A DNA stretch of 64,000 nucleotides from Alcaligenaceae bacterium CGII-47 (GTDB taxonomy: Bacteria > Pseudomonadota > Gammaproteobacteria > Burkholderiales > Burkholderiaceae_B). Below the pieces are notes generated by a model. It saw only the letters and a program-made list of their open reading frames with translations, was not told the DNA's origin and did no database searches. The stretch lies in the NCBI GenBank assembly GCA_019166125.1, contig JAHTBO010000001.1, positions 553,669-617,668 on the forward strand, in the 5' to 3' direction. Within the stretch, counting starts at the first letter, position 1. Every line of letters starts with the position of its first letter. Made by a program: the position numbers and the translations under genes. Of this stretch, positions 5,452 to 5,835 are shown in pieces.

Positions 5452-5835
5452 ATGCTGTATAGTAAAAAGGTACTCGACCACTACGAGAACCCGCGAAATG
5501 TCGGGTCGTTCGACCCACTGGATGCATCCGTTGGCACAGCGTTGGTTGGCTCGCCTGCATTGGGTGAGGTGATGAAGCTACAGATTCGTATCGATGCCTC
5601 AGGCACGATACATGAAGCTTGTTTTCGAACTTTCGGTTGTGGTTCGGCTATTGCGGCGAGTTCGCTCGCTACGGTTTGGCTACAGGGCAAGTCACTTGAC
5701 GATGCTCTGGCCATCAGTAATCTGGATATTACGCAGGAGCTAGAGCTCCCGCCCCTAAAAGCGCATTGCGCCATGCTGGCAGAGGATGCCATCCGGGCAG
5801 CAGTGCGTAATTATCAGCATAAGCATCAGAGGTAA
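5452..5835 (+). CDS. iscU: Iron-sulfur scaffold IscU lacking the first ligand cysteine
   Basis: IscU is the scaffold on which IscS sulfur and iron are assembled into [2Fe-2S] and [4Fe-4S] clusters. This 127-residue protein aligns with E. coli IscU without gaps over the conserved core (YENPRNVGSFD, YGCGSA-like FGCGSA, LPPLKAHC). The cluster ligands should be C37, C63 and C106. C63 and C106 are present, with K103 and H105 before the latter, but position 37 is Leu (codon TTG) and D39 is Glu, giving PALGEV instead of PACGDV. The start is the ATG at 5452, 10 bp after iscS. In the known family C37 is needed for cluster assembly, so this copy may be impaired, work with another ligand, or be backed up elsewhere. 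The reading frame is otherwise clean. Confidence 0.93.
   Translation: MLYSKKVLDHYENPRNVGSFDPLDASVGTALVGSPALGEVMKLQIRIDASGTIHEACFRTFGCGSAIAASSLATVWLQGKSLDDALAISNLDITQELELPPLKAHCAMLAEDAIRAAVRNYQHKHQR

Follow-up and report, generated by a model that had tools for sequence, protein, structure and literature searches.

The IscU protein of Alcaligenaceae bacterium CGII-47 lacks the ligand Cys37, and across the genomes of its family the absence of Cys37 coincides with the presence of SUF and the absence of HscB. The hscB-hscA-fdx module is missing from the isc locus, the iscU frame is open and constrained, and the catalytic loop of the desulfurase IscS is intact. IscU is among the most conserved proteins in iron-sulfur biology, and all three of its cysteines are regarded as essential. 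The reading that we prefer on sequence comparison, tentatively and with a little more doubt than confidence, is that the CGII-47 IscU would be unable to build clusters and has likely been kept as a cluster-free partner of IscS, with SUF likely making the clusters.

The isc locus of CGII-47

The window is the whole 64,000-nucleotide stretch of CGII-47 DNA that was analyzed, and its features are collected in Table 1. The iscU gene is the third gene of iscR-iscS-iscU-iscA, the place held by its orthologs, and lysS follows the operon on the opposite strand.

Table 1. Features of the isc locus in the window.
Feature	Position	Strand	Remarks
uvrB, left-hand neighbor	749..2779	+	Served as species marker
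iscR, Rrf2-type regulator	3687..4214	+	Three Cys (CGGKEDC...GKC); TIGR02010 207.2 bits, cut-off 207.55
iscS, cysteine desulfurase	4230..5441	+	TIGR02006 666.2 bits, cut-off 643.2
iscU	5452..5835	+	127 aa; C37L, D39E; C63, K103, H105, C106 kept; HscA motif LPPLK
iscU codon 37	5560..5562	+	TTG, Leu; Cys in family; Cys in 0/57 read HscB-less genomes
iscU codon 39	5566..5568	+	GAG, Glu; Asp in family; altered in 47/57 HscB-less rows
iscU codon 63	5638..5640	+	Cys retained
iscU codons 103-106	5758..5769	+	K-A-H-C; Lys103 (IscS contact), His105, Cys106 retained
iscA, A-type carrier	5839..6162	+	CGCG motif; TIGR02011 164.4 bits, cut-off 150.6
iscA-lysS junction	6163..6182		20 bases; hscB-hscA-fdx absent, present after iscA in HscB-bearing relatives (L189-L192, L225-L227)
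lysS, right-hand neighbor	6183..7703	-	ORF; also in isc locus of nine other Castellaniella genomes

Translation of 5452-5835 gave a product that aligned without gaps to the E. coli IscU numbering, bearing out the earlier note's reading of Leu37 (TTG) and Glu39 (GAG) with Cys63, Lys103, His105, and Cys106 in place. Its premise that Cys37 and Asp39 are the family norm also held, as both were found in all 30 comparison rows (21 genomes with HscB found and nine named genomes in which HscB was not searched). The product matched Pfam NifU_N with 153.8 bits and the IscU profile TIGR01999 with 185.6 bits, 6.8 below the curated cut-off of 192.4. It shares with E. coli-type IscU (TIGR01999) the fold, the length, the operon place, 63% identity (structure match), and the residues Lys103, Cys63, His105, and Cys106, but differs in having Leu37 within the ligand set 37/63/106, Glu39 for Asp39, a score just under the cut-off, and no HscB, HscA, or Fdx found in the genome. 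SufU, a zinc sulfur-transfer protein working with a desulfurase, is of the same fold family; however, the iscU product scored 39.7 bits against the SufU profile TIGR01994 (cut-off 92.5), the gene lies outside the suf operon, and CGII-47 has a separate SufU with cysteines.

Two base changes separate TTG from any Cys codon, and the metagenome proteins P0046, P0049, and P0051, which are 87-92% identical to the window IscU, likewise carry Leu37 and Glu39, so that a read error is very unlikely. A sequencing error or private mutation was ruled out by the relatives and the metagenome copies. The AlphaFold model of the window IscU, computed with homologs in the alignment, showed the IscU fold with a pLDDT of 96.7; its best PDB match was human ISCU2 (6w1d, TM 0.97), and E. 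coli IscU (3lvl) gave a TM of 0.94. The model of P0060 (source name Castellaniella defragrans), a protein with none of the three ligand cysteines, reached a pLDDT of 93.8. Both models match solved IscU structures, and since homologs were in the alignment they speak for fold compatibility and not for function. The IscS of the window has an intact catalytic loop, SSGSACTSASLEP, and a C-terminal tail ending in QWATL; in HscB-bearing relatives the tail ends in His, mostly as QWAAH.

The CGII-47 genome (3.45 Mb, 99.99% complete) was searched for the remaining components of both assembly systems. A second canonical iscU, which the earlier note had named as a refutation, was not found, the one other NifU_N match in the genome being the SufU mentioned above (TIGR01994, 151 bits). 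The note's alternative of reliance on another assembly system was supported by a complete suf operon on another contig, comprising the SUF regulator, sufB, sufC, sufD, sufS, sufU, and sufT. The profile search gave no match to HscB in this genome; the best HscA match, at 617.9 bits, was under the cut-off of 708.55 and is probably DnaK, and the best Isc ferredoxin match reached 23.1 bits (cut-off 132.1).

In genomes harboring both systems, the gene order is (uvrB), a phosphatase-like gene, iscR, iscS, iscU, iscA, hscB, hscA, and fdx, as read with a simple ORF script that missed some short or overlapped frames. The lysS gene follows fdx in G025, G026, G168, and G234, and is not contained in the sequence retrieved around the locus of G232, G237, or G238. 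The window has the same order minus hscB-hscA-fdx, an arrangement that a local deletion would leave. Very large ORFs, coding for 1547 and 1495 aa and resembling autotransporters on inspection alone, were seen just past iscA or fdx in L188 (G027; 4359-9002) and L192 (G232; 465-4952).

The dN/dS ratio was estimated by the Nei-Gojobori method within Castellaniella for pairs with dS <1.5, and was 0.166 for iscU (29 pairs), 0.118 for iscA, and 0.129 for iscS; lysS, as far as it is contained in the loci, gave 0.084. Canonical iscU gave 0.084 (20 pairs from 14 canonical genera), and the closest pairs, G006/G007 and G003/G004, gave 0.05-0.06 for iscU. The Castellaniella iscU is under purifying selection, about half as tightly constrained as canonical iscU, and shows neither the broken frame nor the ratio near 1 of a pseudogene.

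Cys37, HscB, and SUF in the family

Castellaniella, the probable genus of CGII-47, belongs to Alcaligenaceae. Among its 10 genomes, residue 37 is Leu in eight, Ile in one, and Val in one, with Glu or Gln at residue 39; the fixation of Leu37/Glu39 in the clade, which the earlier note had proposed to check, thus applies to the lack of Cys37 (10/10) but not to the replacing residues. G003 and G004 in addition have Ser63, and none of the three cysteines is left in G005. Among the 119 nearest database proteins, taken from the best 120 of thousands of matches, 67 were without Cys37, and Lys103 and His105 are retained in every one of these. A second search with divergent members, again covering the best 120 of thousands, gave 43 proteins without Cys37 out of 119 newly listed, the named ones among the 43 coming from Alcaligenes and a Burkholderiaceae MAG.

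HscB was detected in 196 of 268 genomes of the family, SufB/D in 77, and a DNA pattern for Pro-Ala-Cys-Gly-Asp-Val-Met (PACGDVM) in 194, the lists being compared by eye. SUF was present and HscB absent in 69 genomes, none of which had the pattern. Both systems were found in eight (G025, G026, G168, G232, G234, G237, G238, and G239), all with the pattern and seven read by sequence, and HscB alone was found in 188. The three genomes with neither are incomplete, namely, G243 (66%), which has the pattern, G272 (82%), and G287 (89%). Three HscB-bearing genomes were without the pattern: G201, which reads ACGDVL with Cys37 kept; G093 (57% complete), in which no iscU was found; and G020. As G201 and G020 keep the Cys codon, Cys37 is retained in 195/195 HscB-bearing genomes with typable iscU, 193 of them by the DNA pattern. 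The iscU of G020 (L142) is split over two frames near codon 36, owing to either an assembly error or a real frameshift.

Of the 69 HscB-less, SUF-bearing genomes, 57 were read by sequence, covering 18 genera; none of these had Cys37 or a stop within the matched part of IscU. The other 12 include seven outside the IscU search (G114, G115, G118, G120, G212, G214, and G216) and three whose match was not fetched (G210, G254, and G260). The remaining two, G030 (75% complete) and G218 (82%), gave a SufU-like match only. HscA (TIGR01991) was above its cut-off in 28 of 61 genomes searched and Isc ferredoxin (TIGR02007) in 31; neither was above cut-off in any of the 30 HscB-less genomes among the 61. 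The HscA match of three HscB-bearing genomes (G016, G038, and G042) was below the cut-off.

In genomes from other families of the order that likewise combine SUF with a lack of HscB, the fate of IscU differs, as an IscU-grade match was found in 0/7 (G040, G045, G046, G047, G050, G051, and G058). Six of these seven have SufU-like matches only, at least one in each beside sufB/D, and G045 has none; an eighth such genome, G041 (68% complete), was outside the IscU search. A strongly diverged IscU could escape the search, although the most diverged ones here still gave E 1e-9 to 1e-12. Retention of IscU in the family of Castellaniella is therefore not automatic, and among the genomes sampled IscU persisting in the absence of HscB is peculiar to this family. 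G053, of the same order (1.8 Mb, 97% complete), gave no match to HscB, SufB/D, IscU, or SufU. No paper on Cys37-less IscU in such bacteria was found in a literature search that took in few subscription journals, so that absence is unproven.

Changes in IscU and IscS

In the 30 comparison rows, 79 IscU positions are invariant, and Cys37 is the sole one altered in all 57 HscB-less rows. Alterations at the other functional residues were found at Asp39 in 47 rows, Cys63 in 12, Cys106 in nine, Lys103 in six, and His105 in three; nine of the invariant positions were unaltered throughout (57/57). The least changed lineages have only three to seven of the 79 positions altered (G027 and G233, three; G236, four; G164 and G167, five; G235 and G165, six; G219, seven), with Cys37 among them every time. 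The chance of this by random fall, taken jointly for G167, G219, G164, G233, and G027 and assuming independence and equal mutability, is ~5e-7. Retention above other invariant positions was significant neither for Cys63, His105, and Cys106 (p 0.11) nor for the LPPVK motif (p 0.09). The most degenerate IscU was seen in genus g67 (G253 and G255-G259), with Pro63-Pro64 for Cys-Gly and no stop within the matched part; Lys103 and Cys63 are lost in all six genomes and Cys106 in five.

Ile108, at a position that we take to be the site governing frataxin dependence, is invariant in the comparison rows and altered in 34/57 HscB-less rows. The changes D39A/V, N90A, S107A, and E111A favor the folded state of E. 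coli IscU (PMC13423590). Positions 39, 90, 107, and 111 are altered in 47, 44, 34, and 22 of the 57 HscB-less rows, with S107A itself in 30. Many of the replacements differ from those tested in E. coli, and in G027 and G235 all four positions are unaltered; a shift to a permanently folded state in the HscB-less IscU is suggestive only. The stabilised laboratory variant E. coli IscU(D39A) is comparable to the CGII-47 protein in its altered position 39, which moves it to the folded state (PMC13423590), but it keeps all three cysteines and its cluster is stabilised, whereas the CGII-47 IscU is without Cys37.

The number of losses was evaluated on species-marker and locus trees. The UvrB tree (40 rows) gave six changes, five of them forced by supported branches. 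G167 (Ser37) was placed by G025 (Cys37), G219 (Leu37) by G168 (Cys37), and G233, G235, and G236 were interspersed with G232 and G234 (Cys37). This tree was rooted on G015 by choice, the HscB-only rows did not fall together, and long rows such as G013 and G036 were placed unsurely; UvrB was searched in 44 genomes, and G026, G021, G172, and G211 were left out, their UvrB being in pieces. Independent pairs were concordant in 5/5 cases (sign test p 0.0625, the lowest value attainable with five pairs), with the Cys37 state entered from earlier typing and coinciding with HscB in every row. The joined UvrB, IscS, and IscA tree gave five changes, four forced, and the IscS and IscA tree alone gave four on the best tree, one forced; G135 and G239, for which no isc locus was retrieved, are absent from the joined trees. 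A preceding IscS tree on 82 rows, with two-system genomes represented by G025 and G026 alone, united the 57 HscB-less rows in one clade (SH-aLRT 86). In the trees of 38-40 rows, with G168, G232, G234, G237, and G238 added, the HscB-less rows did not come out as one clade. One ancient loss with drift was rejected on UvrB, where a single clade of Cys37-less rows has a p-AU of 1e-111, but not on IscS and IscA (p-AU 0.154). Repeated loss of Cys37 is favored. Since IscS and IscA do not reject one origin, one altered isc locus could also have spread by recombination, with transfer inflating the count of losses.

The contacts between IscS and IscU are known from an E. coli crystal, in which Cys37 is the IscU cysteine nearest to IscS Cys328; the E. 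coli variant IscU K103E has lost IscS binding (PMC2854127). Cys328 is present in 57/57 HscB-less rows, with a catalytic loop retention of 0.97. The IscS residues contacting IscU were retained at 0.75 vs 0.93 for other invariant positions (p 0.0017, by a shuffle that ignores kinship) and the tail positions at 0.46. The last residue is His in 25/25 comparison rows vs 10/57 HscB-less rows; among the least changed lineages, G164, G165, G219, G233, G235, and G236 have already lost it, and G027 and G167 still have it. The most-changed of the otherwise invariant IscS positions are Asn306, Lys379, His404, Ser312, Arg39, Arg112, and Ala316, and in most HscB-less rows the C-terminal tail has changed or is gone. 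On the other side of the interface, IscU residues touching IscS were retained at 0.80 vs 0.67 for other invariant positions (p 0.04 by the same kinship-blind shuffle), and the test minus Cys63 gave p 0.0575. In the human complex, NFS1 wraps around ISCU with its C-terminal segment, and the desulfurase cysteine approaches close to the Ala-loop of ISCU that holds the Cys37 equivalent (PMC5668364); by analogy, the bacterial IscS tail may wrap IscU as NFS1 does. With the contact residues and tail of IscS changed and Cys37 lost from IscU, both partners differ at the site where sulfur is handed over. Simply unchanged docking was not upheld, the IscS face being altered. As the IscS side of the contact has diverged more rapidly than the remainder of IscS, and the tail more rapidly than either, docking may have been weakened or lost.

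Possible roles of an IscU without Cys37

In the reading preferred here, SUF would have arrived first and made ISC release dispensable, as all eight two-system genomes keep Cys37; the same observation suggests that the loss of Cys37 accompanied or followed that of HscB. Loss of hscBA-fdx would have removed cluster release and electron supply, and an IscU still accepting sulfur or iron without HscBA and ferredoxin would be a dead end, useless or costly. Cys37, nearest the Cys328 loop of IscS, would for that reason be removed early, and Asp39 and the IscS tail would be altered as well. The remaining IscU fold would sit on IscS without accepting sulfur, and the docked protein may limit the desulfurase or steer it towards other acceptors, e.g., tRNA thiolation. 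Docking on IscS and control of IscS form the least supported step of this explanation.

The main rival of a cluster-free partner of IscS, which we consider unlikely, is that IscU lost its role after the SUF takeover and is drifting to loss, held by the operon structure or a weak residual benefit. This would fit the iscU dN/dS of about twice the canonical value, the further ligands gone in sublineages (G005, G165, and g67), and the want of an IscU-grade match in G030 and G218, incomplete though these are, and in the seven genomes of other families. Slow drift is, however, difficult to reconcile with the want of a stop in the matched part of IscU in 57 genomes of 18 genera, a dN/dS well below 1 and at 0.05-0.06 in the closest pairs, nine positions that never changed, and a universal change at Cys37 in place of changes scattered across the ligands. 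The earlier suggestion that iscU is starting to decay is likewise too simple for a gene with a dN/dS of ~0.17 and no internal stop, in which the lack of Cys37 is fixed in the genus and in all read HscB-less relatives.

It is quite improbable that the protein, without iron, carries persulfide or zinc on Cys63, His105, and Cys106 and passes sulfur on in the manner of SufU. The retention of His105 in 54/57, Cys106 in 48/57, and Cys63 in 45/57 HscB-less rows would agree with such a relay, as would the CGCG motif of the adjoining IscA in the window and the Castellaniella loci examined, but the superior retention of the three residues is not significant, and the protein is kept in G165, G005, and five of the six g67 genomes despite the loss of both Cys63 and Cys106. 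Cys37 is moreover the cysteine placed nearest to Cys328 in the crystal (PMC2854127). A retained role away from IscS, for instance, in regulation with IscR or IscA, has very little probability; the occurrence of iscS, iscU, and iscA matches together in 82/82 loci and the three Cys kept by the window IscR could be accommodated by it, and no direct finding opposes it. Scarcely credible is a protein that is still a cluster scaffold, with, e.g., Asp, Glu, Ser, or Thr at 37 or a residue of a partner as the other ligand. The fold is confidently modelled, and residue 37 is Asp, Glu, Ser, Thr, Gln, or Asn in 40/57 HscB-less rows, but it is Leu, Ile, Val, Gly, or Ala in 17/57, including the Leu of CGII-47, and no Isc ferredoxin or HscBA was found to drive or release a cluster. 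The different ligand set considered in the earlier note finds no support as a general rule, because L, Q, T, E, S, D, N, A, G, I, or V at residue 37 amounts to no consistent replacement.

Extended to the family, the cluster-free partner reading becomes possible, with doubt outweighing confidence, and would define a new IscU class of pseudo-scaffolds. Whenever SUF took the place of the ISC release half, the cysteine with which IscU first accepts sulfur and the tail with which IscS wraps it would have been struck out in parallel and the protein kept for a cluster-free desulfurase job; cluster building and desulfurase control would be separable and would have been separated several times. For proteins of Alcaligenes, Castellaniella, and relatives, the annotation "iron-sulfur cluster assembly scaffold protein" is no proof of a working ISC system. 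The family offers a large natural set always without one essential cysteine, and as sister genomes still have Cys37, the order in which the assembly line was dismantled can be read. It makes testable which IscU functions depend on a cluster in the first place, and why IscU is retained in some lineages after a SUF takeover and dropped in others.
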